In this document: positions 25,932 through 44,001 of the stretch, in pieces
Position numbering within the stretch: the stretch's first letter is position 1
Layout: each line of letters opens with the position of its first letter
Assembly (NCBI GenBank): GCA_022778905.1
Contig: JALFRV010000222.1
Coordinates: 1-44,001, forward strand
DNA from: Prevotella sp.
Lineage (GTDB): Bacteria > Bacteroidota > Bacteroidia > Bacteroidales > Bacteroidaceae
DNA: 44,001 nt
Direction of reading: 5' to 3'
Notes under the pieces: generated by a model
Database searches by the model: none
What the model was told of the DNA's origin: nothing
The model's input: only the letters and a program-made list of their open reading frames with translations
Translations under genes and position numbers: made by a program

Positions 25932-26059
25932 GCCTTCTTCTTGCTTGCGGAAATACAGGTTATTGATCTGTCAGCCAGATTGTTATGCCGTACGCGGGCA
26001 CCCCTCGTGAAAAAGGTCCTGCAGACCTCGGTTCGAAGGATGATTCGTCCGCCTTCTGC

Positions 26060-26138
26060 AGAGCTATCATCCGGGCCGCCCGGATGATAGCTCTTCGCCG
26101 TCGAAAGGATAGCTCTTGGCGGCCCGGATGATAGCTCT
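26060..26138. repeat. Perfect 17-bp inverted repeat plus 22-bp-phased GATAGCTCT repeats
   Basis: AGAGCTATCATCCGGGC (26060-26076) / GCCCGGATGATAGCTCT (26078-26094 and again 26122-26138); GATAGCTCT at 26086, 26108, 26130. Confidence 0.95.
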
Positions 26139-26215
26139 GCGGAGACCGCTGATTGAGGGCGGAAAATAAGGAAATACACAATTTTGGGGCGAAGGCAATA
26201 AAATACGGCTAAAAA

Positions 26216-26247
26216 GTTGGCTGATTGAGAAATTTGCAGTAATTTTG
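26216..26247 (+). promoter_or_regulatory. rpsU promoter
   Basis: GTTG (26216-26219), 20-bp spacer, TAATTTTG (26240-26247). Confidence 0.6.
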
Positions 26248-26312
26248 CACCCGCAATTGTGGTGATGAGTCCCAATGCGAATGTTAAACAATTAAATAAT
26301 TAGATCAATAGC

Positions 26313-26504
26313 ATGATTATTGTACCAGTTAAGGACGGTGAGAACATCGAAAGAGCTTTGAAGAAGTTCAAGAGAAAGTTTGAAAAGACAGGCGTTGTGA
26401 AAGAACTCCGCGCTCGTCAGCAATACGATAAGCCTTCTGTACTCAAGAGACTCAAGATGGAGCATGCCGTATACGTACAGCAGCTGCGTCAGAACGAGGA
26501 ATAA
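26313..26504 (+). CDS. rpsU: 30S ribosomal protein S21
   Basis: MIIVPVKDGENIERALKKFKRKFEKTGVVKELRARQQYDKPS. Confidence 0.97.
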   Translation: MIIVPVKDGENIERALKKFKRKFEKTGVVKELRARQQYDKPSVLKRLKMEHAVYVQQLRQNEE

Positions 26505-26589
26505 TATTTTTCCCGGGAAATCCTTGGTGGTTTGAATATTTTTCTATATATTCGTTGCCGATAAGCATTCGTGATGTTAACGGCGCTCT

Positions 26590-27471
26590 ATGGTTATAGA
26601 AGAATTTTTGAACTACTTGCAGTACGAGAAGAATCGTTCCCGGCTGACAGTCGGAAGCTATGGCGATGATCTTCGGGCCTTTGAGGCGTACTTCAAAAAA
26701 ATGGATAATCAGCTCTCGTGGGAGTCGGTAGACTCGGACGTCATCCGTGATTGGATGGGGAGTATGATGGATAGAGGAAACAATGCAACTTCAGTCAACC
26801 GGCGACTGAGTGCATTGCGTTCTTTCTATCGTTATTGTCTTTCGCGCAAGTTGATCGCGAAAGATCCCTCGCGCGGCATTGAGGGGCCGAAAAAGAGCAG
26901 GCCTCTGCCGCAGTTCCTGAAGGAAAGTGAAATGGACGCGCTGTTTGACGGCTTGGCATGGAAGGATGATTATAAAGATGTTCGCGCGAAGACCATCCTG
27001 CTGACATTCTATGCCACGGGCATGCGTTTGGCGGAACTTGTTGGCCTGAATGATGAGGCTGTGGATTTTTCCATGCGCCAGATCAAGGTCGACGGCAAGC
27101 GTAACAAACAGCGGCTGATCCCGTTTGGTGATGAATTGGAGCAGGCTCTCCGGCACTTCATGTCGGTCCGTGACGGTTCGGTTGGCAAGCAGTCGGGGGC
27201 GCTCTTCCTGACAGAGTCGGGCAAACGGATGAATGCCAATCAGGTGCGCTACGAGGTCAAGCGGAATCTCTCGAAAGTCTGCACGCTGAAGAAACGTACC
27301 CCTCACGTGCTCAGGCATACCTTCGCCACGTCGCTCCTCAATCACGATGCTGAGTTGGAAAGCGTGAAGGATCTGTTGGGACACGACAGTCTGTCGACCA
27401 CGGAAATCTACACGCACACTACTTTTGAACAGCTCAAGCGAGTATATACGAATGCCCATCCGCGGGCTTAA
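26590..27471 (+). CDS. xerC: Tyrosine recombinase, XerC/XerD-like
   Basis: TGMRLAEL, HVLRHTFATSLLNHDAELESVKDLLGHDSLSTTEIYTHTT catalytic motifs. Confidence 0.9.
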   Translation: MVIEEFLNYLQYEKNRSRLTVGSYGDDLRAFEAYFKKMDNQLSWESVDSDVIRDWMGSMMDRGNNATSVNRRLSALRSFYRYCLSRKLIAKDPSRGIEGPKKSRPLPQFLKESEMDALFDGLAWKDDYKDVRAKTILLTFYATGMRLAELVGLNDEAVDFSMRQIKVDGKRNKQRLIPFGDELEQALRHFMSVRDGSVGKQSGALFLTESGKRMNANQVRYEVKRNLSKVCTLKKRTPHVLRHTFATSLLNHDAELESVKDLLGHDSLSTTEIYTHTTFEQLKRVYTNAHPRA

Positions 27472-27495
27472 TCTAATTTAAAACAGGAGGTAACT

Positions 27496-27795
27496 ATGGA
27501 AATTAAAATTCAATCGATTCATTTCGATGCTACCGAGAAGTTGCAGGCGTTTGTCGAAAAGAAAGTCGCCAAGTTGGAAAAGACTTATGAAGACATCAGG
27601 AACGTAGAGATACAAATGAAAGTGGTCAAGCCGGCAACGGCATTGAATAAAGAAACAAGCCTGACAGTGCTGGTTCCCGGCGGTACGCTGCATGTGGAAA
27701 AAACGTGTGATACGTTTGAAGAAGGGGTGGATCAATGCGTGGATGCTATGAAGGTTCAATTGACCAAATTCAAGGAAAAACTTCGTGATCGCTAA
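27496..27795 (+). CDS. hpf: Ribosome hibernation-promoting factor (HPF/RaiA family)
   Basis: MEIKIQSIHFDATEKLQAFVEKKVAKLEKTYEDI; size and position. Confidence 0.88.
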   Translation: MEIKIQSIHFDATEKLQAFVEKKVAKLEKTYEDIRNVEIQMKVVKPATALNKETSLTVLVPGGTLHVEKTCDTFEEGVDQCVDAMKVQLTKFKEKLRDR

Positions 27796-27812
27796 AAAAA
27801 AATAAGAAAAAT

Positions 27813-27843
27813 TTTGGCGATTAGAAAATAAGTCGTATCTTTG
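27813..27843 (+). promoter_or_regulatory. Promoter of the tRNA-tuf unit
   Basis: TTTG (27813-27816), 19-bp spacer, TATCTTTG (27836-27843). Confidence 0.8.
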
Positions 27844-27896
27844 CAGCCGTTTTACAACACGTTCTAACAAGAGTCGCTTGGCGGCTGCAAGGATTT

Positions 27897-27970
27897 GCCT
27901 CTTTAGCTCAGTTGGCCAGAGCACGTGATTTGTAATCTCGGGGTCGTTGGTTCGAATCCGACAAGAGGCT
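27897..27970 (+). tRNA. tRNA-Thr(TGT)
   Basis: GCCTCTT/AAGAGGC acceptor, loop TTTGTAA, GGTTCGAATCC T-arm. Confidence 0.93.
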
Positions 27971-28056
27971 CAGAAAGACGTGGATGTCGGAAGTGTCCCG
28001 ATGGATCGGAAGAGGCGGAAGACTTGTCTTGGACGGGATGATGTTGTAGGCATAAA

Positions 28057-28139
28057 GGGTGGTTACCAGAGTGGCCAAATGGGGCAGACTGTAAATCTGC
28101 TGGCTCTTGCCTTCGGTGGTTCGAATCCATCACCACCCA
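28057..28139 (+). tRNA. tRNA-Tyr(GTA)
   Basis: GGGTGGT/ACCACCC acceptor, anticodon GTA, long variable arm. Confidence 0.95.
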
Positions 28140-28225
28140 CTTCAGTTGAAGTTTTGCGGATTGTTCGTTCACACGAATGGCACAAAAACGAGGCCGTTGC
28201 CGAGTGAAGCCGAACAAGCCCATTT

Positions 28226-28298
28226 GCGGAAATAGCTCAGTTGATAGAGCACTAGCCTTCCAAGCTGGGGGTCGCGGGTTTGAGTCCCGTTTTCCGCT
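28226..28298 (+). tRNA. tRNA-Gly(TCC)
   Basis: GCGGAAA/TTTCCGC acceptor, loop CTTCCAA. Confidence 0.95.
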
Positions 28299-28307
28299 CT
28301 AACTTAT

Positions 28308-28379
<72 letters not shown>

Positions 28380-28460
28380 CTGCTTCGGATCTATTTTGTA
28401 GACGAAGAAAAACAGAATGTAATAGTGGATTATTCATTTATTTAAATAAAAAGTAAAGCT

Positions 28461-29657
28461 ATGGCTAAGGAAGAATTCGTACGTACCAAACCCCATGTGA
28501 ACATTGGTACAATTGGTCATGTCGACCACGGTAAGACTACTTTGACAGCTGCCATTTCCAAGGTGCTCCACGATAAGTTGGGTACAGGTCAGGATGTCAA
28601 GTCTTTCGATCAGATTGATAATGCTCCCGAAGAGAAAGAGCGTGGTATTACCATTAACTCTTCTCACATTGAGTATGAAACAGCTAACCGTCACTATGCG
28701 CACGTTGACTGTCCGGGACACGCTGACTATGTAAAGAACATGGTTACCGGTGCTGCCCAGATGGACGGTGCCATCTTGGTAGTTGCTGCAACTGATGGTC
28801 CTATGCCTCAGACTCGTGAGCACGTGCTTCTGGCTCGCCAGGTAAACGTTCCCCGTCTGGTTGTCTTCCTGAACAAGTGTGACCTCGTTGATGACGAGGA
28901 AATGATGGAACTCGTTGAAATGGAACTTCATGAACTGCTCGAGCAGTATGACTACGAAGAGGATACTCCTATCGTTCGCGGTTCTGCCCTCGGTGCTCTG
29001 AATGATGTTGACAAGTGGGTTGATTCAGTTCTGAAGCTGATGGATACCGTAGACACTTGGATTCAGGAGCCTGTACGTGAGGTCGACAAGCCTTTCTTGA
29101 TGCCTGTTGAGGACGTCTTCTCCATCACTGGTCGTGGTACAGTTGCTACTGGTCGTATCGAGACTGGTCGTTGCAAGATCGGTGACGAAGTTCAGCTGCT
29201 CGGTCTTGGTGAGGATAAGAAGTCGGTTATCACCGGTGTTGAAATGTTCCGCAAGACGCTTCCTGAAGGTGAAGCTGGCGACAACGTAGGTCTGTTGCTT
29301 CGCGGTATCGACAAGGAGGAAGTGAAGCGTGGTATGGTAGTCGTACACCCGGGAGCCATCACTCCTCACGATCACTTCAAGGCTTCGATCTATGTATTGA
29401 AGAAGGAAGAGGGTGGCCGTCATACTCCATTCGGTAACAAGTATCGTCCTCAGTTCTATCTGCGTACGATGGACTGCACCGGCGAGATCAAGCTTCCTGA
29501 AGGAGTTGAGATGGTAATGCCAGGTGATAACGTTGAGATTGAGGTTGAACTGATCTACAGAGTTGCTCTGAACGAAGGTTTGCGTTTTGCTATCCGTGAA
29601 GGTGGCCGTACCGTTGGATCTGGTCAGATCACTGCAATCCTGGACGACGTTAAGTAA
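28461..29657 (+). CDS. tuf: Elongation factor Tu
   Basis: [44 protein letters not shown]. Confidence 0.99.
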
Positions 29658-29687
29658 GTCAAACATCTTTTATAAGATACACTAAGG

Positions 29688-29719
29688 GTTCCCGCAACCG
29701 CGGTTACGGGAACTTTTTT
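29688..29719 (+). terminator. tuf terminator/attenuator directly abutting tRNA-Trp
   Basis: GTTCCCGCAACCG/CGGTTACGGGAAC (one mismatch) then TTTTTT. Confidence 0.75.
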
Positions 29720-29792
29720 ACGGGTTTAGCTCAGTTGGTAGAGCACTGGTCTCCAAAACCAGGTGTCGAGAGTTCGAGTCTTTCAACCCGTG
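29720..29792 (+). tRNA. tRNA-Trp(CCA)
   Basis: ACGGGTT/AACCCGT acceptor, loop CTCCAAA. Confidence 0.95.
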
Positions 29793-29809
29793 CAAAAATA
29801 AAGCATGAT

Positions 29810-30022
29810 ATGTTTGGGAAGATCGCAGTTATTTATAAGAAGATCGTAAATTCTTTTAAAGCTTCATACGATGAGCTTCTGCACAAGACAAGCTGGCCAA
29901 CCCGCAAAGAGTTGCAGCATAGTGCAGTGGTAGTATTGTCTGCATCACTTGTCATTGCAATCGTTGTCTTCGTAATGGACAGCGTATTCAGATTTGTGAT
30001 GAGTACACTCTATTCCATTTAA
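29810..30022 (+). CDS. secE: Preprotein translocase subunit SecE
   Basis: [42 protein letters not shown]; start moved from 29735, which lies in the tRNA. Confidence 0.95.
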
Positions 30023-30038
30023 AGATAAGTTGGAAAGA

Positions 30039-30584
30039 ATGGCTGGGGCTAATTTGAATTGGTATGTGCTTCGTGCCGTGAGCGGCAAGGAGGCGAAGCT
30101 GAAGGAATACATCGAGGCGGAGATGAAGCACAATGAGTTGCTTTCAGCTCATGTGGCACAGGTGTTGATTCCTGTTGAACGTCATGCAGCGCTGCGTAAT
30201 GGAAAGCGGGTCGAAAAAGAAAAGATCAGCCTTCCCGGTTATATCTTTGTGCAGGCTGAGCTGATCGGTGATGTCGCACATACGTTGCGGTTTATGCCCA
30301 ATTGTCTCGGATTTCTCGGAGGTCTTGACAATCCCTCACCTGTTCCGCAGGTAGATATCAATAGAATGTTGGGTGCTGCAGAGGATACCGAACTTGACAA
30401 TACTGCCTCGATCCCTTATGCTGTTGATGAAACGGTGAAAGTTACTGACGGACCGTTCAGTGGATTCAGCGGCGTCATAGAAGAGGTGAATGCAGAGAAG
30501 CGGAAACTGAAGGTCATGGTGAAGATCTTTGGGCGCAAGACGCCTCTGGAACTCAGTTTCATGCAAGTAGAAAAAGAAGGATAA
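30039..30584 (+). CDS. nusG: Transcription termination/antitermination protein NusG
   Basis: [38 protein letters not shown] (KOW); ATG at 30039. Confidence 0.96.
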
Positions 30585-30679
30585 GGTCATATTGTTACGG
30601 TGACTTTATCTTTATATATAGCAGAAAAGGCTTCCACTTTTCATGCTCATATCTATAACAAATAATTATTAACAAGAAA

Positions 30680-31120
30680 ATGGCTAAAGAAGTTGCTGGA
30701 TTAATCAAATTACAGATTAAAGGTGGCGCTGCAAATCCCTCTCCTCCAGTAGGACCGGCTTTGGGTTCTAAGGGTATCAACATCATGGGATTCTGTAAGG
30801 CTTTCAACGCCCGTACCCAGGATAAGGCAGGTAAGATTCTTCCTGTTGTTATCACTTACTATACAGACAAGTCATTTGATTTCATTGTAAAAACTCCTCC
30901 AGCTGCCGTGCAGCTGAAAGAGTTGACCAAAGTGAAGTCGGGTTCGGCCCAGCCAAATCGTCAGAAAGTAGCCAGCGTAACCTGGGATCAGGTACGCACT
31001 ATTGCTGAAGACAAGATGGTCGATCTCAACTGCTTCACAGTGGAAAGCGCTATGAAATTGATCGCCGGTACTGCAAGGAGCATGGGTATTACTGTAAAAG
31101 GGGACTTCCCTGGTAAATAA
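30680..31120 (+). CDS. rplK: 50S ribosomal protein L11
   Basis: [41 protein letters not shown]. Confidence 0.99.
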
Positions 31121-31147: not shown

Positions 31148-31840
31148 ATGAGTAAACTGACAAAAAATCAGAGATCAGTAGCTGAGAAGGTTGAAGCAGG
31201 GAAGGTATACACGTTGAAAGAGGCATCGGAATTGGTGAAGGATATTACCACCACCAAGTTTGATGCGTCTATCGACATTGATGTACGCTTAGGTGTAGAT
31301 CCGCGCAAGGCTAACCAGATGGTTCGTGGTGTTGTCACACTGCCGAACGGTACTGGTAAGGTAACGCGTGTACTTGCACTCTGTACGCCCGATCAGGAAG
31401 AGGCTGCGAAGGCAGCCGGTGCTGACTATGTTGGTCTTGATGAATATATCGAAAAGATCAAAGGTGGATGGACAGATGTTGATGTCATTATCACGATGCC
31501 TTCTTGCATGGGAAAGGTAGGTCCTTTAGGTCGTGTACTCGGTCCGAGAGGTTTGATGCCTAATCCTAAGAGTGGCACTGTTACTATGGATGTTGCTAAG
31601 GCAGTAAAGGATGTAAAGTCGGGAAAGATTGACTTCAAGGTTGATAAGACCGGTATTATCCATACGTCAATCGGTAAAGTCAGCATGAGTGCTGATCAGA
31701 TCTACGGTAACGCAAAGGAGTTTATTGCTACCGTTATCCGTCTGAAGCCTGCCGCTGCTAAAGGTACCTATATCAAGAGTATCTTTATTTCGAGCACGAT
31801 GAGTAAGGGTATCAAGATTGATCCTAAATCAGCTGAATAA
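31148..31840 (+). CDS. rplA: 50S ribosomal protein L1
   Basis: [35 protein letters not shown]; order. Confidence 0.99.
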
Positions 31841-31858
31841 CTCTAAAAGTTTTGTAAA

Positions 31859-32383
31859 ATGAAGAAAGAAGTAAAAGATACTATCATTGTCGAACTTGGA
31901 CAGAAGCTGAAGGAGTATCCGCATTTCTATCTGGTAGACGTTACCGGACTGAATGCTGAAGATACGAGCGCTTTGCGTCGCAAGTGCTTCAAGAATGAAG
32001 TGAAGATGGTCGTTGTGAAAAACAAACTCCTTCACAAGGCTTTCGAGGCTTCTGATATTGATTTCGAACCTTTATACAGCACACTGAAAGGAAACACTGC
32101 TGTCATGTTCACACAGACCGCAAACGTTCCTGCCAAGATGCTGAAGGAATATCAGACAAAGAAGGCAGAGATCCCTGCTCTGAAAGCAGCCTATGCAGAG
32201 GAATGCATCTATGTAGGTGCACAGAACCTTGATGCGTTGGTAGCAATCAAGAGCAAGAACGAACTTATTGGAGACATTGTCAGCTTGCTGCAGTCTCCTG
32301 CAAAGAACGTTGTTTCTGCTTTACAGTCAGGCGCAAACACAATCCACGGTGTGCTCAAGACTTTAGGCGAGCGTCCTGAATAA
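31859..32383 (+). CDS. rplJ: 50S ribosomal protein L10
   Basis: Sequence and order between rplA and rplL. Confidence 0.97.
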   Translation: MKKEVKDTIIVELGQKLKEYPHFYLVDVTGLNAEDTSALRRKCFKNEVKMVVVKNKLLHKAFEASDIDFEPLYSTLKGNTAVMFTQTANVPAKMLKEYQTKKAEIPALKAAYAEECIYVGAQNLDALVAIKSKNELIGDIVSLLQSPAKNVVSALQSGANTIHGVLKTLGERPE

Positions 32384-32484
32384 TCATAAGGGAGCTGAGG
32401 AGTTGTCCTATGGGCGCTCCATCCGATACCTTTATAAAGTCAAAAGGATATATTTATAAACGATCAATTAAATTTTAGAATAAA

Positions 32485-32865
32485 ATGGCAGACGTAAAAG
32501 CTATTGCTGAAGAATTAGTAAATTTGACAGTTAAAGAAGTAAATGAGTTGGCAACAGTCCTGAAGGACGAGTATGGAATTGAACCCGCTGCTGCAGCTGT
32601 CGCTGTTGCTGCCGGTGCTGCTGCAGGAGGTGCTGCTCCTGAGGTTGAAGAGAAGACTTCTTTCGATGTAGTATTGGCAGAAGTTGGAGCTACGAAGCTT
32701 CAGGTCGTAAAGGCTGTTAAGGAAGCTTGTGGCCTCGGTCTGAAGGAAGCAAAGGATCTCGTTGACGGTGCACCTGCTACTATCAAGGAAGGCTTGACCA
32801 AGGAAGAAGCTGAGAATCTGAAGAAGGCTATCGAGGAAGCTGGAGCCAAGGTAGAGCTCAAGTAA
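32485..32865 (+). CDS. rplL: 50S ribosomal protein L7/L12
   Basis: [43 protein letters not shown]. Confidence 0.99.
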
Positions 32866-32893
32866 TCGGTACTTGATATTCTTTTAATCATAC

Positions 32894-32931
32894 GGTTAGG
32901 ATTTGCCCAGTCGGTGGATCCTAACCTTTTT
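32894..32931 (+). terminator. rplL-rpoB intergenic hairpin (attenuator-like)
   Basis: GGTTAGGAT/ATCCTAACC perfect 9-bp stem followed by TTTTT. Confidence 0.75.
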
Positions 32932-32998
32932 GTGTCTTTTGGCACATTTCCTATTAGCTCTGTAGCTAATTTATCCAATAGATCTATAAAATTTATAT

Positions 32999-35900
32999 AT
33001 GGCTTCAAAAATTGTTGATAACAGAATGAACTTTGCCAGCGTGCATAGTCCGTATCCTTATCCGGACTTTCTCGATGTGCAATTGAAGTCTTTCAAGGAC
33101 TTCTTACAGTTGGATACTCCGCCTGAGGAACGCAAGAATGACGGTCTGTATCGGGTGTTCGCAGAGAACTTCCCGATCACCGACACGCGTAATAATTTCG
33201 TTCTTGAGTTCTTGGACTACTATATTGATCCGCCACGTTATACCATCGACGAGTGTCTGGAACGCGGCTTGACCTATAGCGTACCCTTGAAGGCCCGTAT
33301 GAAACTCTACTGTACGGATCCTGATCATGAAGACTTTGCACCTGTTACTCAGGACGTCTTCCTGGGAACAATCCCGTATATGACTTCGAATGGAACCTTC
33401 GTTATCAATGGAGCTGAACGTGTTGTTGTCGCTCAGTTGCACCGTTCGCCCGGTGTATTCTTTGGTCAAGGCGTCCATGCAAACGGCACGGTGCTTTACA
33501 GCGCACGTATTATTCCGTTCAAAGGATCTTGGATTGAATTTGCGACAGATATCAATAACGTGATGTATGCCTATATTGATCGCAAGAAAAAGTTGCCCGT
33601 AACAACACTTCTTCGTGCGGTAGGCTACGAGAGTGATAAGGATATTCTGCAGATATTCGACCTCGCCGAGGAAGTGAAGGTCAACAAGAAGAATATGAAA
33701 GAAGCTGTTGGGCGCCGCCTTGCAGCCCGTGTCCTAAAGAGTTGGAATGAAGACTTCGTGGACGAAGATACCGGCGAAGTTGTTTCGATTGAGCGCAATG
33801 AAGTGATCATGGAACGTGAGACTGAGATCACAGAGGATAATGTCCTTGAGATTCTTGAAAGCGGAGCATCGACGGTATTGCTTCATAAGGACGCTGAAGG
33901 ATCCAACCGCTACGGCATTATCTTCAATACACTTGCCAAAGACCCCAGCAACTCGGAGAAGGAAGCCGTCAACTACATTTACCGGCAGTTGCGTAATGCA
34001 GATCCTGCTGATGATGCCAGTGCGCGCGAAGTGTTCCAGAATCTTTTCTTCTCGGATAAACGTTATGACCTCGGTGAGGTTGGTCGCTATCGTATCAACA
34101 AGAAGTTGGGGCTCAATATTGATGCAGACACGCTTGTTCTGACCAATGAGGACATTATCGCAATTATCAAATATCTCATCCAGCTGATCAACTCGAATGC
34201 GACGGTTGACGATATTGACCACTTGTCAAATCGTCGCGTCCGCACCGTCGGTGAGCAGCTTGCCAACCAGTTCTCTATCGGACTGGCCCGTATGAGCCGT
34301 ACCATTCGCGAGCGCATGAACGTTCGTGACAACGAGATCTTTACTCCGACCGATCTGATCAACGCGAAGACGATCTCCAGTGTGATCAACTCGTTCTTCG
34401 GAACGAATCCTCTGAGCCAGTTCATGGATCAGACCAACCCATTGGCAGAAGTCACTCACAAGCGCCGTCTCTCAGCGCTTGGGCCTGGTGGTCTGTCACG
34501 CGAGCGTGCAGGATTTGAAGTTCGAGACGTTCACTACACCCACTACGGTCGTCTTTGTCCTATTGAGAGTCCTGAAGGTCCTAACATCGGACTGATCTCC
34601 TCACTGTGTATGTATGCGAAGATCAATGATCTCGGCTTCATTGTTACGCCTTATCGTAAGGTTGCAAATGCCAAGGTCGACATGGACAACGAGGATGTGG
34701 TCTATCTGACAGCCGAGGAAGAGGAAGACAAACTTATCGGTCAGGGTAACGCCCCATTGAAAGTCGATGGCTCATTCATTCGCACTTTTGTCAAGTGCCG
34801 TCAGGATGCCGACTACCCCGTTGTTGCTCCCGATCAGGTAGACTTAATGGACGTATCACCCCAGCAGATCGCTTCCGTTTCAGCCGGCCTTATTCCGTTC
34901 CTCGAGCATGATGACGGTCACCGTGCCTTGATGGGCTGTAATATGATGCGCCAGGCAGTTCCGCTCCTTCATAATGATGCCCCGATCGTGGGTACAGGAC
35001 TGGAGAAGCAGGTCTGCGAGGATTCCCGCACGATGATTACCGCTGAAGGCGACGGTGTGATCGAATACGTTGATGCCACGACAATCCGTATTTTGTACGA
35101 CCGTACCGAAGAGGAGGACTTCGTAAGCTTTGAACCTGCATTGAAGGAATACCGCATTCCGAAGTTCCGCCGTACCAACCAGAACATGGTTGTCGACCTA
35201 CGTCCGATCTGCAGCAAGGGCCAACGCGTCAAGCAGGGCGATATCCTGACAGAGGGATATGCTACTGAAAACGGTGAGTTGGCATTGGGCCGTAACCTCC
35301 TTGTTGCCTATATTCCGTGGAAAGGATACAACTATGAGGACGCTGTCGTCATTTCTGAGCGCATGGTACGCGAGGATGTGCTGACTTCAGTCCATGTAGA
35401 CGAGTATAGTCTTGACGTGCGTGAGACAAAGCGCGGCGTTGAAGAATTCACGGCAGACATCCCCAACGTTTCTGAGGAAGCTACCAAGGATCTCGACGAC
35501 AATGGTATTGTTCGTGTAGGTGCACGTGTCGAACCGGGCGATATCCTCATCGGTAAGATCTCACCCAAGGGTGAAAGCGATCCTTCTCCCGAAGAGAAAC
35601 TGCTTCGCGCCATCTTCGGTGACAAGGCCGGAGACGTAAAGGATTCTTCATTGAAAGCCAATCCATCGCTGAGTGGTGTCGTCATTGACAAGAAACTATT
35701 CTCGCGTGCTGTTAAGACCCGCGATTCAAAGAAGCAGGACAAGGTGATACTTGCCAAGATCGATGAGGAATACGAAGCCAAGAACAATGACTTGAAAGAC
35801 ATCCTCGTGGACAAACTCCTGACGCTGACCGAAGGCAAGAAGTCACAGGGTGTAAAGGACTACACCGGTGCCGAAATTATCACCAAGGGCAGCACTTTCA

Positions 35901-36811
35901 CTGCTGCGACTCTCAAGAATCTCGAATATGACGGAATTCAGAGCAACGGATGGACCAATGACGAGAAGAATAACGTCCTGATCCAGCAGTTGATCATGAA
36001 CTACATCCGTAAATATAAGCTGCTTGATGCGGAGCAGAAGCGCCGCAAGTTCGCCATCACTATAGGCGACGAACTGCCCTCCGGCATTCTGCAGATGGCT
36101 AAAGTCTACATCGCTAAAAAGCGTAAGATCCAGGTAGGTGACAAGCTTGCTGGTCGTCATGGAAACAAGGGTATCGTGTCTAAGGTCGTTCGCATGGAGG
36201 ATATGCCGTTCTTAGAGGATGGCCGTCCAGTCGACTTGGTGCTCAACCCGATGGGTGTGCCTTCGCGTATGAACCTCGGACAGATCTTCGAAGCGATCCT
36301 TGGTGCTGCGGGCAAGAAGCTCGGCGTCAAGTTTGCTACGCCGATCTTCGATGGTGCAAAGCTTGAGGACCTGCAGCAGTGGACTGACAAGGCCGGTTTG
36401 CCTCGTCTGTGCTCCACCTATATATATGATGGTGAGACGGGCGAGAAGTTCGACCAGCCTGCTACGATCGGTATTACTTACTTCTTGAAGTTAGGCCACA
36501 TGGTCGAGGACAAGATGCATGCACGTTCCATTGGTCCGTACTCTCTCATTACCCAACAGCCGCTCGGTGGCAAGGCCCAGTTTGGTGGCCAGCGTTTTGG
36601 AGAGATGGAAGTCTGGGCGCTCGAAGCCTTCGGAGCCAGTCATGTATTGCAGGAAATCCTTACCATTAAGTCTGATGATGTTGTTGGACGTTCCAAGGCT
36701 TATGAGGCCATCGTCAAGGGCGAGCCCATGCCGACACCGGGTATTCCGGAGTCACTGAATGTGTTGCTCCACGAGCTCCGTGGTCTTGGATTAAGCATCA
36801 AGTTGGATTAA
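32999..36811 (+). CDS. rpoB: DNA-directed RNA polymerase subunit beta
   Basis: [43 protein letters not shown]; full length. Confidence 0.99.
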
Positions 36812-36827
36812 TAAAAGAGAATAAAAC

Positions 36828-39800
36828 ATGGCTTTCAAAAAAGATATCAAGGTAAAGAATAATTTTACGAAGATTTCCATCGGCCTTGCTTCACCTGAAG
36901 AAGTCCTGGAGAACTCGTATGGTGAGGTGACGAAGCCCGAAACCATCAATTATCGTACATACAAGCCGGAGCGCGACGGTCTGTTCTGTGAGCGCATTTT
37001 TGGTCCGACCAAGGACTATGAGTGTGCTTGCGGCAAGTACAAGCGCATCCGTTATAAAGGCATCGTGTGTGACCGTTGCGGCGTTGAGGTGACCGAGAAG
37101 AAAGTCCGTCGTGAGCGCAGTGGCCATATCGAATTGGTTGTTCCGGTAGCTCATATCTGGTATTTCCGTTCATTGCCCAACAAGATCGGCTACCTTCTCG
37201 GTATGCCTACCAAGAAGCTCGACTCCGTGATCTATTATGAGAAGTATGTCGTCGTCCGTCCGGGTGCCTTGGAAGGTGCGAAGGATGCCGAAGGCTTAGA
37301 GCTGAATGGTTCCCACAAGATGGACCTGCTCTCTGAAGAGGAGTATATGGACATCCTTGACAACCGGCTGCCGGAAGGCAATGAGTACTTGCCCGATGAA
37401 GACCCGAATAAGTTCGTCGCCAAGATGGGTGCCGAAGCTATCTATGCATTGCTGCTCGACATTGATCTTGACGGTCTGTCTTATGAATTGCGCGACCGCG
37501 CCAACAACGACAGCAGCCAGCAGCGCAAGACGGAAGCCCTGAAGCGTCTGCAGGTTGTAGAGGCCTTCCGCTCATCCAAGGAGATGAATAGGCCCGAATG
37601 GATGATCATGAAGATTATTCCCGTCATTCCGCCAGAGCTGCGCCCGTTGGTACCTTTGGATGGTGGACGTTTTGCAACGTCCGATTTGAACGATCTCTAT
37701 CGTCGTGTGATCATCCGTAACAACCGCTTGAAGCGTCTCATGGAGATCAAAGCTCCCGAAGTCATTCTGCGCAATGAGAAGCGTATGTTGCAGGAGGCAG
37801 TCGACTCATTGTTCGACAATTCCCGCAAGAGTTCAGCGGTCAAGAGCGAGAGCAACAGACCTTTGAAATCGCTGTCCGACTCCCTCAAGGGTAAGGCCGG
37901 GCGTTTCCGTCAGAATCTTCTGGGTAAGCGTGTCGACTATTCTGCACGTTCGGTAATCGTGGTAGGTCCAGAATTGAAGATGGGAGAGTGTGGTCTGCCC
38001 AAGCTGATGGCTGCAGAGCTCTACAAACCGTTTATCATCCGCAAGCTCATTGAGCGCGGCATCGTCAAGACGGTGAAGAGTGCGAAGAAGATTGTTGACC
38101 GTCGTGAGCCGGTCATTTGGGACATCTTGGAGAACGTCATGAAAGGTCATCCTGTTCTGCTCAACCGTGCCCCGACGCTTCACCGTCTCGGTATTCAGGC
38201 TTTCCAGCCCAAGTTGATCGAAGGAAAGGCAATTCAGCTGCATCCGTTGGCATGTACGGCGTTCAATGCCGACTTCGACGGCGACCAGATGGCTGTCCAT
38301 CTTCCATTGAGCAATGAGGCTGTTCTCGAGGCCCAGATCCTCATGCTGCAGAGCCACAATATTCTCAATCCTGCCAATGGTGCTCCAATTACGGTTCCTT
38401 CACAGGACATGGTGCTCGGTCTCTATTATATTACGAAGGTTCGTCCGGGTGCGAAAGGCGAAGGCTTGACGTTCTACGGACCCGAAGAGGCGATTATTGC
38501 CAACAATGAAGGCCGCTGTGATCTTCACGCACAAGTGAAGGTGCTCATCGATGAAAGTGCTGCCGGAAAGCCGGGCAAGCAGCTTGTCGAGACTACTGTC
38601 GGTCGTGTGATCGTCAATCAGATCATCCCCGACGAGATCGGATTCTTCAATGGCATCATCTCCAAGAAGTCGCTCCGCGGTCTGATCGCCAATGTGATCA
38701 AGGCAGTAGGTATGGCCCGTGCCTGCTCGTTCCTTGATGGCATCAAGAACCTCGGCTATCATATGTCCTATGTTGCCGGTCTGTCCTTCAACCTCGACGA
38801 TATCATCGTTCCCGAGGAGAAGGAGAGCATTGTCAACAAAGGTAACAAGGAAGTCGAAGAGATCACCAACAACTATAACATGGGTTTCATCACCGACAAG
38901 GAGCGTTATAACCAGGTTATTGATACCTGGACCCATGTCAACACCAATCTGAAGGCTTCTGTGATGAAGCGGATGACGGAGGATGACAAGGGCTTTAATG
39001 CTGTTTACATGATGCTCGATTCCGGTGCCCGTGGTTCCGCAGACCAGATTGCCCAGCTTGCTGGTATGCGCGGTCTGATGGCCAAGCCGCAAAAAGCCGG
39101 TGCAGAAGGTGCACAAATCATTGAGAACCCGATCCTCTCCAACTTCAAGGAGGGTATGTCCGTGCTCGAATACTTCATTGCTTCCCACGGTGCCCGTAAG
39201 GGTCTTGCCGACACAGCTATGAAGACGGCCGACGCCGGTTATCTGACACGCCGTCTGGTCGATGTTTCCCACGATGTGATTATTACCGAGGAAGACTGCG
39301 GCACGCTGCGTGGGCTTGAATGCCGGGCCCTGAAGAACGGTGATGAAGTGATCTCCACACTCTACGAACGTATTCTCGGGCGTGTCTCCGTGCATGATGT
39401 GATCCATCCGACAACGGGTGAAATCCTCGTCTATGCTGGTGAAGAGATCACTGAGGACAAGGCTCAGCAGATCGAGGATTCACCGATCGAGATGGTCGAA
39501 ATCCGTTCGGTGCTGACCTGCGAGAGCAAGCATGGAGTCTGCATGAAGTGCTATGGCCGCAACCTTGCTACTGCCCGCATGGTGCAGTTGGGTGAGGCTG
39601 TGGGTGTGATAGCTGCACAGGCTATCGGTGAGCCTGGTACACAGCTGACCCTCCGTACTTTCCACGCCGGTGGTGTGGCCGGTAATGCTGCCGCCAATGC
39701 AAGCATTGTGGCCCGTAACGACTCCAAACTCGAGTTTGATGAACTGCGTACGGTACCGTTCGAAGACGAGGCCGGCACTGCTTGTGAGATGGTTGTCAGC

Positions 39801-41150
39801 CGTCTGACAGAAGTCCGTTTCGTCGATCCGAATACAGGCATTGCTCTCAGTAACCTCAATGTACCCTATGGTAGTTCACTCTATCACAAGAACGGAGATA
39901 TCGTCAAGAAAGGCGAGCTTATAGCCAAGTGGGACCCGTTCAATGCGGTTATCGTCAGCGAATATGCCGGTACGCTGAAATTCAATCATGTCAAGGAAGG
40001 TGCTACCTACCGTGCCGAGACCGACGAGACTACGGGTCTCATCGAGCGTATCATCACCGACTCCAAGGACCGCACGCAAGTGCCGACCGTGGATATCATC
40101 GGCAAGAATGGTGAAGTCCTCGGTACTTACAACTTCCCTGTAGGTGGTCACATCTCGGTCGATGACGGTCAGACCATCTCAACAGGTGCTACGCTTGTCA
40201 AGATACCGCGTGCCGTGGGTGGTGCTGGTGATATCACCGGTGGTCTTCCACGTGTCACTGAGCTCTTCGAGGCCCGCAACCCCTCCAATCCTGCTGTCGT
40301 TTCCGAAATTGACGGTGAGGTGACCATGGGTAAGGTAAAGCGCGGCAACCGCGAGATCGTCGTCACATCCAAGACGGGTGATCAGCGCAAGTATCTCGTC
40401 AGCCTCAGCAAGCAGATCCTCGTGCAGGAACACGATGCGGTGCGAGCCGGTACGCCGCTTTCCGACGGTGTCATCACCCCCGACGACATCCTTGCCATCA
40501 AGGGTCCGACGGCCGTTCAGGAGTATATCGTCAATGAGGTTCAGGATGTCTATCGTCTGCAAGGCGTGAAGATCAACGACAAGCATTTCGAGATCATCGT
40601 GCGTCAGATGATGCGCAAGGTACAGATCAACGACCCGGGTGACACCGCATTCCTCGAGCAGGAATTGGTCGACAAACTTGACTTCGCTGATGAGAACGAC
40701 CGTATATGGGGCAAGAAAGTTGTTACTGATGCAGGCGACTCCGACAACATGAAGCCTGGTCAGATCGTGACTGTGCGCAGGCTCCGTGACGAGAACTCAA
40801 GCCTCAAGCGTCGTGATCTGCGGCCTGTTGTCGTGCGTGATGCCGTTGCGGCCACGTCTACCCAGGTGCTTCAGGGTATCACCCGGGCTGCTCTCGGTAC
40901 CAAGAGCTTCATGAGTGCGGCCTCCTTCCAGGAGACAACGAAGGTGCTCAACGAAGCTGCGATCCGCGGAAAGGTAGACCGTCTCGAAGGCATGAAGGAA
41001 AATGTGATCTGTGGTCACCTTATCCCTGCCGGTACCGGTATGCGTCAGTGGGAGAAACTGATCGTCGGTTCGAAGGAAGAGTACGACCGCATCGAGGCCA
41101 ACAAGAAGAATGTCCTCGACTTCGTAGAGCGTGGATCCGCAGAGGATTAA
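36828..41150 (+). CDS. rpoC: DNA-directed RNA polymerase subunit beta'
   Basis: [12 protein letters not shown] catalytic motif, zinc-binding [22 protein letters not shown]. Confidence 0.99.
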
Positions 41151-41211
41151 GCCGCTTCTCTTTTCATAGGAAAGGGTCACTGACGATGCGTCAGATGACC
41201 AATCTCATAAC

Positions 41212-41250
41212 AAGGCTGTGCCGGAATGATTTCCGTGCACGGCCTTTTTT
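41212..41250 (+). terminator. Terminator downstream of rpoC
   Basis: AAGGCTGTGC...GCACGGCCTT stem (one G-U, inner CGGAA/TTCCG) then TTTTTT. Confidence 0.85.
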
Positions 41251-41408
41251 GATAGTCTGTTGTTCATCCTCCATCTGTCACCCGCCTGTTTCAATGCCGG
41301 GAAACATAGAATCTGTTGGAAAAAGGTGGGCATTCCTTTTGAGGAAAAGTATGTTTTGAGGGTGCAATATGATGTCTTGGCACATGGGCACAAAGTAGAC
41401 TTGACAAG

Positions 41409-41450
41409 TGCAGTGTTGTGATTTGCCCAAGTCACAGCACTGCATTTTTT
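41409..41450 (+). terminator. Second strong terminator downstream of rpoC
   Basis: TGCAGTGTTGTGA/TCACAGCACTGCA 13-bp stem (one G-U), 10-nt loop, TTTTTT. Confidence 0.85.
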
Positions 41451-41521
41451 GATGGTTAATTATGACTTTGGCTATGCCAGAAATGACTTTACTCGTTTAT
41501 GGTTATTGTTACCGGATCGGT

Positions 41522-41800
41522 TTACATCTTTTCATGTGCTTTCTGAAACGCTTTAAACTGTCCGGCAAAGTCAACGGCAGGTTTGGCGAAGCAGGCATAA
41601 GGTCTATCCTCACCGTATACCGACAGAACCTGAACATCAGGCCAAAGAGCGTCTTCGGCAGCATCAGCAGGCAGCCGCACAGACATTCATGTATGCAGGA
41701 TGCCGTCTTCAGGGTCTCCTGCTGACACTTCCCGCCGGATCTGTTGGCACAGCTCCAAAGGCGGGCGGTGGAAGATGGCGATAAGGAATGGTTGTCATAG
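41522..41800 (-). pseudogene. Possible decayed CDS fragment
   Basis: Minus frame reads PLELCQQIRREVSAGDPEDGILHT*MSVRLPADAAEDALWPDVQVLSVYGEDRPYACFAKPAVDFAGQFKAFQKAHEKM* with an internal stop; composition looks protein-like. Confidence 0.2.
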
Positions 41801-41853
41801 TATTAAGTTCCTTAAACTTCGTTATCAACAGAACAGTTATCCGGTCTTTAGTG

Positions 41854-41861
41854 TATCTTTG
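41854..41861 (+). promoter_or_regulatory. Putative -7 box (TATCTTTG) for the GH18/deacetylase gene
   Basis: Matches TAnnTTTG, 24 bp before the ATG at 41885. Confidence 0.5.
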
Positions 41862-41884
41862 CGCCGTCTTTAAAAATAGGTAAT

Positions 41885-44001
41885 ATGGATCGTCAGGTGT
41901 TCCAGACCGACAGCAGGTCCCGTTGGGTGCGGGTGAAGATCAGCATCGCGCTGATTCTGACACTTGTGTGTCTTTTCATTTCCGTCATGGTTGTTTCTTT
42001 CTTGATAGACAGGATTCCGAACATGCCCTTCAAAGAGGAGTACAGCAGCGTCATCATGGCGCGTAAGCCCTATATGAAATCGAATCGGCTCTCAAAGGAA
42101 TATAGTGGATTCCGCAAGTACTTCAATCGGGAACATAAGCTGCATAGCAACTACGCGAAATGGGATCAGGCCCGCAACCTGAAAATCCGCCGATACAATG
42201 GCAACACCGGACGTTATCTCACCGAATGGGACAGCCGACCAAGCGGCATACGCGCAGCTTTCTATGTCAGCTGGGATCCGATGTCCTTTGCATCCTTGAA
42301 AACTGCACTTGGGAGTTTGAACTTAGTGATTCCCGAGTGGTATTTCATCAATCCGGCAACTGCCAGCGTAGAGACGCATATTGACGCCAAAGGCTATCAG
42401 CTGTTGAAGCATTCGGGGATTCCGGTCATGCCCATGCTCAGCAACGCATGGCACGGCAGCTTCAATGCCAAAGGCATCGGGCGCATTCTGCATGACCGTG
42501 TCCTCCGTGCGCAACTTGTCAGCAGCATGCTCTCAGCGTGCATGAAACATGGTTTTGTAGGAATAAACATCGACATTGAGGACTTGGATGAGACTAACAA
42601 CGATGCTTTCACGGCTTTTGTCAAAGAACTCTCGTTGGCCTTTCATGACCATGGGCTGTTGGTCACCCAGGATATTGCGCCCGGCAATGAGGACTATGAC
42701 GTCAAGGAACTTGCCAAGTATAATGACTATCTGCTGCTGATGGCCTATGACGAGCACAATGTGCTCAGTGACGCAGGGCCGGTCTCTTCACAGCAGTGGA
42801 TCGACCGGACGGTCGGGCTAATAGCCGAACAGGTTCCGCCGGAGAAAGTCATCCTCGGATTGGCTGCCTACGGTTATGACTGGAATGAGAAAGCCGACAA
42901 CAATCAAAGCATCGGTTTCAACGATGCCATGTCGGTTGCGGATGACACGCACTCGCAGATTGATTTCGATGAGGACACCTATAGTCTCGGCTATGCCTAT
43001 AAGGATAATTCCGGTCAGTTGCATCAGGTCTTTTTCAATGATGCTGCCACCAACTTCAATACCATGCGCTTCGGTTCCGAGTACAGGCTTGCCGGCTTCG
43101 GTGTATGGCGGTTGGGCAGCGAGGACAGACGCCTGTGGAGCTTCTATAATAAGGATCTGACAAGGACGGGGGCGGCCCGTCTTCGTGTCGGCGACTTGGA
43201 AGTGCTCCACGGCAGCCGGTATGCCAATTATCTGGGCGAAGGGGAGGTGATGGATATCATCAATACGCCTCACGACGGCAATGCTCACATTGACATGGAC
43301 AACGAAAACCTGCTCATTGCCCGGGAGACCTATACGAAGATCCCCACGTCCTATGACTTGCGCAAATACGGATCATGTGGGAAGAAAGACCTCCTGCTCA
43401 CTTTTGACGACGGGCCCGACCGTCAATGGACACCTGCCATCCTGAAGACGCTGCGCCACTATGGCGTTCATGCCGCGTTCTTTATGGTTGGATTGCAAAT
43501 GGAACGCAATCTGCCGGTAGTCAGGGATGTCTTCGAGGAGGGACATCTGATTGGCAATCACACGTTCACCCATCGCAATGTGGCCACCAATACGCCCCAG
43601 CGGACCTATATGGAACTGAGGCTTACGCGCATGTTGATTGAAACCTGCACCGGCCACAGCACCATTCTCTTCCGTGCGCCTTATAATGCCGACAGCGATC
43701 CGTCAGGCAGCGAGGAGCTTATCCCGTTGGCCGAGGCACGCAAGCAGAACTTCATCAATGTCGGAGAAGCCGTAGATCCCAATGACTGGCAGCCCGGAGT
43801 CACGGCCGACGAGATATTCCGGCGTGTCGTGAAAAGCGTCGAACACGGCGAAGGACATATCATCCTCCTCCATGATGCGGGCGGTGATACGCGGAAAGCC
43901 ACGGTCGACGCGTTGCCGAGAATCATCTCCTACTTTCAGCAACATGGATATCGGTTCATCACGCTTGAGCAGTATCTCGGTGAGTCGAAAACAGACCTGA
44001 T
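41885..44001 (+). CDS. Membrane-anchored GH18-like domain fused to polysaccharide deacetylase (NodB/CE4), truncated at the window end
   Basis: Open from ATG 41885 to the window end; TM SIALILTLVCLFISVMVVSFLI; GH18-like GFVGINIDIEDLDE and LLLMAYDEHN; NodB LLLTFDDGPD and GNHTFTHRN. Confidence 0.9.
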   Translation, partial: MDRQVFQTDSRSRWVRVKISIALILTLVCLFISVMVVSFLIDRIPNMPFKEEYSSVIMARKPYMKSNRLSKEYSGFRKYFNREHKLHSNYAKWDQARNLKIRRYNGNTGRYLTEWDSRPSGIRAAFYVSWDPMSFASLKTALGSLNLVIPEWYFINPATASVETHIDAKGYQLLKHSGIPVMPMLSNAWHGSFNAKGIGRILHDRVLRAQLVSSMLSACMKHGFVGINIDIEDLDETNNDAFTAFVKELSLAFHDHGLLVTQDIAPGNEDYDVKELAKYNDYLLLMAYDEHNVLSDAGPVSSQQWIDRTVGLIAEQVPPEKVILGLAAYGYDWNEKADNNQSIGFNDAMSVADDTHSQIDFDEDTYSLGYAYKDNSGQLHQVFFNDAATNFNTMRFGSEYRLAGFGVWRLGSEDRRLWSFYNKDLTRTGAARLRVGDLEVLHGSRYANYLGEGEVMDIINTPHDGNAHIDMDNENLLIARETYTKIPTSYDLRKYGSCGKKDLLLTFDDGPDRQWTPAILKTLRHYGVHAAFFMVGLQMERNLPVVRDVFEEGHLIGNHTFTHRNVATNTPQRTYMELRLTRMLIETCTGHSTILFRAPYNADSDPSGSEELIPLAEARKQNFINVGEAVDPNDWQPGVTADEIFRRVVKSVEHGEGHIILLHDAGGDTRKATVDALPRIISYFQQHGYRFITLEQYLGESKTDL

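Follow-up and report, generated by a model that had tools for sequence, protein, structure and literature searches.

The window, meaning the whole stretch of 44,001 nucleotides analysed here, contains at positions 26060–26138 a 79-bp array of short repeats. To its right are rpsU and genes for a xerC-like recombinase, an hpf-like protein, tuf, nusG and rplK (26140–31000), followed by rplJ, rplL, rpoB, rpoC and beyond (31500–44001). An earlier note on this DNA described a perfect 17+1+17 inverted repeat at 26060–26094, a third copy of its right arm at 26122–26138, and GATAGCTCT at 26086, 26108, and 26130 in steps of 22 bp, all of which are present in the sequence. The array is composed of four 13-bp near-palindromic boxes and three 9-bp linkers (13+9+13+9+13+9+13), with exactly 22 bp from one box centre to the next, in the orientation −+++. 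Box 1 (26060–26072, minus strand) is inverted and reads AGAGCTATCATCC. Box 2 (26082–26094), box 3 (26104–26116), and box 4 (26126–26138), all on the plus strand, read GGATGATAGCTCT, AAAGGATAGCTCT, and again GGATGATAGCTCT. The linkers between them are GGGCCGCCC (26073–26081), TCGCCGTCG (26095–26103), and TGGCGGCCC (26117–26125). The perfect hairpin is a by-product of this arrangement, since box 1 is inverted relative to box 2 and the linker between them is self-complementary. Arms extended to 26055–26080 and 26118–26143 are 26 nt long and 96% complementary. When 97 array ends are aligned outward, the 22-bp register continues to a degenerate outer box, GGATGATTCGTCC, at 26038–26050, and a weak match, GCTGATTGAGGGC, occupies the outer box position at 26148–26160. 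Eleven bases of the box core AGAGCTATGCT also occur in the Streptococcus pyogenes type II-A CRISPR repeat, probably by coincidence.

The array belongs to a large family. Boxes in the window's own genome, a fragmented metagenome-assembled genome (MAG) with approximate gene calls, have an almost constant right part, ATAGCTYT, with variation in the left five bases and the linkers. The pattern ATAGCTYT-N14-ATAGCTYT (period 22) has 247 exact matches in this genome and 0 in a reversed-pattern control, and with up to two mismatches it yields 427 box pairs against 3 in the control, so the array is far beyond chance. The earlier suggestion of a dispersed repeat family was therefore right, and a single copy without conservation is clearly not the case, as relatives share the architecture as well. 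Within 593 kb of the genome, a sample enriched for contigs known to carry arrays, there are 50 arrays, of which 39 are exactly 79 bp long. After strand normalisation, −+++ is the commonest orientation (18 arrays) and ++++ the next (10). Boxes flip while the 22-bp register is unchanged, which indicates that the box is a dyad unit. Codon-based gene calling places 46 of 47 arrays between genes, with one overlapping a called gene; crude gene calls had put 20 arrays inside open reading frames, and codon-based calling removed all but one. Arrays are over-represented between convergent genes (15 of 46, compared with 28 of 195 intergenic gaps), and 8 of 46 lie between divergent genes. A rough count in this genome makes no preference of array direction for transcription visible, and a plasmid search with the element gave no match.

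Some further features accompany these arrays. Near-identical pairs lie a few kilobases apart (L169:1287 and 7375; L171:1512 and 11029), the L171 pair having ~75 bp of flank in common, as after local duplication. A palindrome, TTGTAAC-N4-TTGATNATCAA-N4-GTTACAA, is dispersed in array flanks of G000 (e.g., L181:11840, L183:7546, L184:11680), with its centre at discrete distances of 10, 22, ~34, and ~46 bp from array ends. It also occurs genome-wide in G004, G017, G003, and G016, and is present too in congeners lacking this box core.

The 22-bp register continues far beyond the arrays. Across the 97 aligned outward flanks, base preferences recur at 22-bp steps and remain in phase for more than 400 bp, entering coding DNA. 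With arrays masked or excluded, coding sequences have excess identity at lags of 22, 44, 66, 88, 110, 132, 154, 176, and 198, each of which ranks first in its mod-3 class or shares the first three places with other multiples of 22. Over all sampled DNA with arrays masked, the comb at multiples of 22 reaches a summed z/sqrt(n) of 44.7 at lags of 22–220 and of 10.0 at lags of 3.1–4 kb, with half-period lags (22k+11) near 0, that is, at background. The fitted period is 21.991 ± 0.003 bp in the own genome and 21.981 ± 0.004 bp in Hoylesella marshii, close to two helical turns of about 11 bp, and the period scan contains 11.0 bp as a harmonic. The array-anchored phase signal falls with distance from the nearest array and persists at 4–8 kb. 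Coherence extends over ~4 kb in autocorrelation and over tens of kilobases in phase maps.

Within genes, the lattice is concentrated where the sequence is free to vary. The signal resides at third codon positions and in noncoding DNA, with almost none at codon positions 1 and 2 (at 200–500 bp, V2 is 0.066 at third codon positions versus at most 0.0075). Shuffling synonymous codons within genes lowers the coding-sequence comb from 35.2 to 3.3–4.4 in the own genome and from 21.1 to 4.3–5.2 in H. marshii, a collapse that places the lattice at the level of DNA and not of protein sequence. Its profile is dyad-symmetric, with C at −8/−7, A at −6 and −4, T at +4 and +6, and G at +7/+8, a symmetry that is partly imposed by the pooling of both strands. 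The A/T maxima alternate at 10- and 12-bp spacing, and the true repeat is 22 bp. Per site, the imprint is weak.

Phase maps of the window were calculated in 1-kb segments with a profile learned without the window. From 1 to 26000, this held-out map shows a nearly continuous 22-bp lattice at third codon positions and in noncoding DNA, with a phase of 0 at the array, a slow drift to −7, and a return to 0 at 1–2.5 kb. The best LOD there ranges from 0.3 to 35.5 per kb, nearly all segments exceeding the permuted 99% point of 3.7, and the lattice is weak at 21.5–23 kb. Through the rpsU-to-rplK region (26140–31000), whose genes were added by hand for the phase map, the lattice is weak or absent, tuf retaining a weak one. 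It resumes from 31500 to 44001 with an offset of +3 to +5 that drifts through 0 to about −4, some segments being weak. Left of the array the lattice is thus strong, and from ~26.1 to 31 kb it is weak or missing, an observation from one case. Lattice strength has no correlation with a CAI-like expression proxy (rho 0.05), so the weak lattice at rpsU–rplK is not generalised. Anecdotally, genes that look accessory or mobile (TnpB, SusD, LRR, and the MFS gene of the window) are among those with the weakest lattice, and the core genes RuvB and MnmG are among those with the strongest. Contig C49 carries the lattice over 60 kb, its phase drifting smoothly, and each of the six arrays there matches the phase around it. 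When each locus is left out in turn and its array is masked together with 40 bp of each flank, the array falls within ±1 bp of the locally inferred phase in 49 of 49 cases and exactly on it in 44, where chance would give 3 in 22 per array.

A role tied to the neighbouring genes is not supported. The earlier note considered a boundary between the accessory locus and rpsU; such a function would not be specific, as the regions upstream of rpsU in 15 congeners hold 0 intact arrays of this core, with a degenerate relative in one (G012), and other arrays adjoin unrelated genes. Regulation specific to rpsU is rejected because of the same missing intact arrays.

Other Prevotellaceae carry the same geometry, often with different cores. 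A scan of named genomes for a three-box pattern has matches in Prevotellaceae MAGs, H. marshii, H. saccharolytica, Xylanibacter caecicola, Porphyromonas pasteri, and others, some of which are probably chance or unrelated repeats. Within the window's genus, this box core is found in 3 of 23 other genomes. The 13+9 architecture occurs with a AAACCTACGGTTT-type core in G017 and with an AAAGGCC...TTT-type core, beside the TTGATNATCAA palindrome, in G004. G017 also has eleven similar intergenic copies of ~215 bp (L272–L282, around position 2000) with ends TGTAAA...TTTACA, inside which four AAACCTACGGTTT-core boxes occur together with a palindrome resembling TTGATNATCAA. The rumen Prevotellaceae RUG178 and RUG12005 (L088, L099, L141, L156) contain longer runs of the same kind of box. 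Matches in Methanosarcina are an unrelated 11-bp tandem repeat: in Methanosarcina/Euryarchaeota MAGs (L068, L083, L089, L114, L139, L145), many tandem copies of AATAGCTTTTG precede a conserved stretch around GAGCACGTAAATTA.

The lattice likewise recurs in independent genomes. The cultured isolate H. marshii DSM 16973 has a comb of 35.9 over 400 kb, with 17 of 18 arrays exactly in phase with a lattice profile that is not cross-validated here. H. saccharolytica, RUG301, KH2P17, G003, G006, G016, and G017 are also positive, as is G004 in one of two samples, and the comb is negative in E. coli K-12, four other Bacteroidales families, and many congeners. In three array-rich Prevotellaceae, no lattice extends beyond about 110–200 bp, where the same test gives its null value; arrays alone therefore do not imply a lattice, and the null value speaks against a methodological artefact. 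The single-contig genome G016 lacks this box core and has a comb of 32; there, the lattice fit alone pointed to intergenic four-box arrays of core ATTTG(CGT/ACG)CAAAT with 9-bp linkers. This core forms 127 pairs in G016 and 0–1 in each of seven other genomes. The lattice thus predicts arrays, the core varying by species while the geometry is kept. HU and HU-HIG were rejected as marker proteins, because all 19 genomes tested have them, whether or not a lattice is present.

The element is best explained as a phase-setting, and probable nucleation, site of a chromosome-wide DNA-binding lattice formed by a putative protein, a reading to which we give a probability of about 0.6. The wider proposal, which stands at even odds, is that a subset of Prevotellaceae has bacterial chromatin with a sequence-encoded register, in which a putative protein lattice with one dimer per 22 bp would be continuous over tens of kilobases, be seeded at four-box arrays of species-variable core, and be strong enough to influence the choice of synonymous codons across much of the chromosome's sequence. 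Long DNA with a regular, phased sequence preference, as of a DNA-coating protein lattice, is present here. The putative protein would line the chromosome in adjoining units, each spanning two helical turns (mean pitch 21.98–21.99 bp), coding DNA included, and its dyad-symmetric footprint suggests that it is probably a dimer. Binding may be contiguous or cooperative. Four adjacent high-affinity intergenic boxes would seed the lattice and fix its register, such that arrays may nucleate it rather than merely mark it, with a possible role in nucleoid organisation. Over evolutionary time, the preferred pattern (A at −6/−4, T at +4/+6, C/G just outside) would be imprinted wherever the sequence can vary, mostly at synonymous third codon positions. 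Within a unit, the ten-base distance between A/T positions would suit a pair of minor-groove contacts, and the species-specific centre of the box may be read in the major groove.

A structural DNA code, of the sort suggested for the 10–11 bp periodicity of many bacterial genomes, could produce periodicity with no dedicated lattice protein if A/T-rich minor grooves phased at ~11 bp favoured curvature or supercoiling, the arrays being the strongest curved sites. The alternating 10- and 12-bp A/T spacing and the 11.0-bp harmonic are in line with it. However, local mechanics give no reason for a phase memory of tens of kilobases or for a dyad-symmetric 22-bp unit, and leave four boxes with a sequence- and species-specific core exactly in register unaccounted for, which makes this code an unlikely, though not negligible, source of the pattern. 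The lattice might instead be a mutational scar, left where a protein or processive enzyme every 22 bp shields or exposes bases and biases mutation, so that the pattern is not functionally needed. Concentration of the signal at synonymous third positions agrees with such a scar, as do the accessory or mobile genes among the weakest, an anecdotal trend expected if the pattern is written slowly. However, a minor part of the comb remains after synonymous codons are shuffled, meaning that amino-acid-changing sites are slightly affected too, and a scar would need a register stable over evolutionary time, hence still a positioned lattice; we regard it as rather improbable.

Explanations confined to the array fare worse. 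An ordinary dispersed intergenic repeat of the REP/BIME/MITE kind, spread by a transposase and without further meaning, would match the copy number, the intergenic placement with enrichment between convergent genes, and the eleven similar elements in G017. It conflicts with linkers that vary from copy to copy at exact box spacing, with a transposase (Y1) whose presence does not track arrays, and with the phase lock between arrays and neighbouring coding DNA, and is accordingly very improbable. Scarcely credible is an RNA element, whether a hairpin terminator or a 3′-end stabiliser of the upstream operon as the earlier note had considered, even though the element folded as RNA forms a strong hairpin (−78 kcal/mol, z −5.7). 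That note correctly stated that no U-tract follows the hairpin, which is succeeded by TCGCCGTCG with no T-run. Linker-linker RNA pairing has no co-variation within the own genome, and apparent co-variation in a multi-genome set probably reflects differing genome base composition. Box 1 and box 4 are complementary above shuffles at p 0.001, in one of many tests. Intergenic placement, including arrays between divergent genes, together with the lack of direction preference and of linker co-variation, points away from an RNA function, and arrays in register with the third codon positions of neighbouring genes indicate a DNA-level rather than an RNA-level element.

If a protein coat is responsible for the lattice, it would constitute sequence-positioned bacterial chromatin and a DNA-level force on codon choice that is independent of translation. 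The long-standing question of how helical-period patterns arise in bacterial genomes would become directly testable in culturable isolates, and DNA-recognition cores, at least four of which are seen, would be changing rapidly on a conserved scaffold. The chromosome sequence looks as if written to fit a regular protein coat. We know of no bacterium for which a phase-coherent DNA lattice over kilobases has been described. Open-access literature in PMC, preprints lying outside its coverage, contained nothing relevant on the repeat, its sequence, the 22-bp period, or a kilobase lattice, and a prior description is possible.

Among known systems, the 10–11 bp periodicity of bacterial genomes (A-tract phasing; Herzel, Trifonov, Schieg; Mrazek, PMC3940949) shares the weak periodic placement of A/T that is readable in coding DNA, and is commonly linked to supercoiling, curvature, or packing. 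Its coherence is short (about 100–200 bp), whereas the present lattice holds for ~4 kb and more, has a dyad-symmetric 22-bp unit, keeps its phase over distances from kilobases up to tens of kilobases, and is locked to intergenic arrays of specific sequence. The papers on this periodicity that were examined for Prevotella or a 22-bp period mention neither. REP/BIME elements with RAYT resemble the arrays in being intergenic, many-copy, palindromic boxes of mixed orientation and regular spacing, and high-copy short extragenic palindromes are what the own genome contains (427 box pairs; 46 of 47 arrays intergenic). By eye, the aligned arrays have no constant GTAG or CGTC tag at box ends, CGTC occurring in a few outer flanks only. 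A RAYT origin is rejected, as G012 has arrays without a PF01797 match, G000 has one weak partial match, and array-free genomes have strong matches. Unlike REP/BIME, the register of the arrays runs on into neighbouring genes.

Several other classes are set apart by their form. CRISPR arrays have near-identical repeats of about 23–47 bp with unique spacers, in place of the 13-bp variable boxes, 9-bp linkers, and mixed orientations seen here. An intrinsic terminator has a G+C-rich hairpin and then a T-run, where TCGCCGTCG stands instead. Rfam holds no family matching the element above the gathering score, the sub-threshold hairpin (miRNA) matches being spurious. Iteron and centromere arrays, such as type II parC bound by ParR and tubC by TubR, consist of tandem boxes at regular helical spacing on which a protein assembles into a superhelix. 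The tandem boxes and helical spacing are shared with the arrays, the protein here being putative, but well over a hundred arrays are distributed across this chromosome with a lattice imprint between them. Nucleosome positioning sequences favour A/T in the minor groove and G/C in the intervals, and coding DNA carries this imprint as well. The A/T preference, the intervening G/C, and the extension into coding DNA are common to the lattice, which differs in its fixed register over tens of kilobases, its 22-bp repeat, and its sequence-specific anchor boxes.
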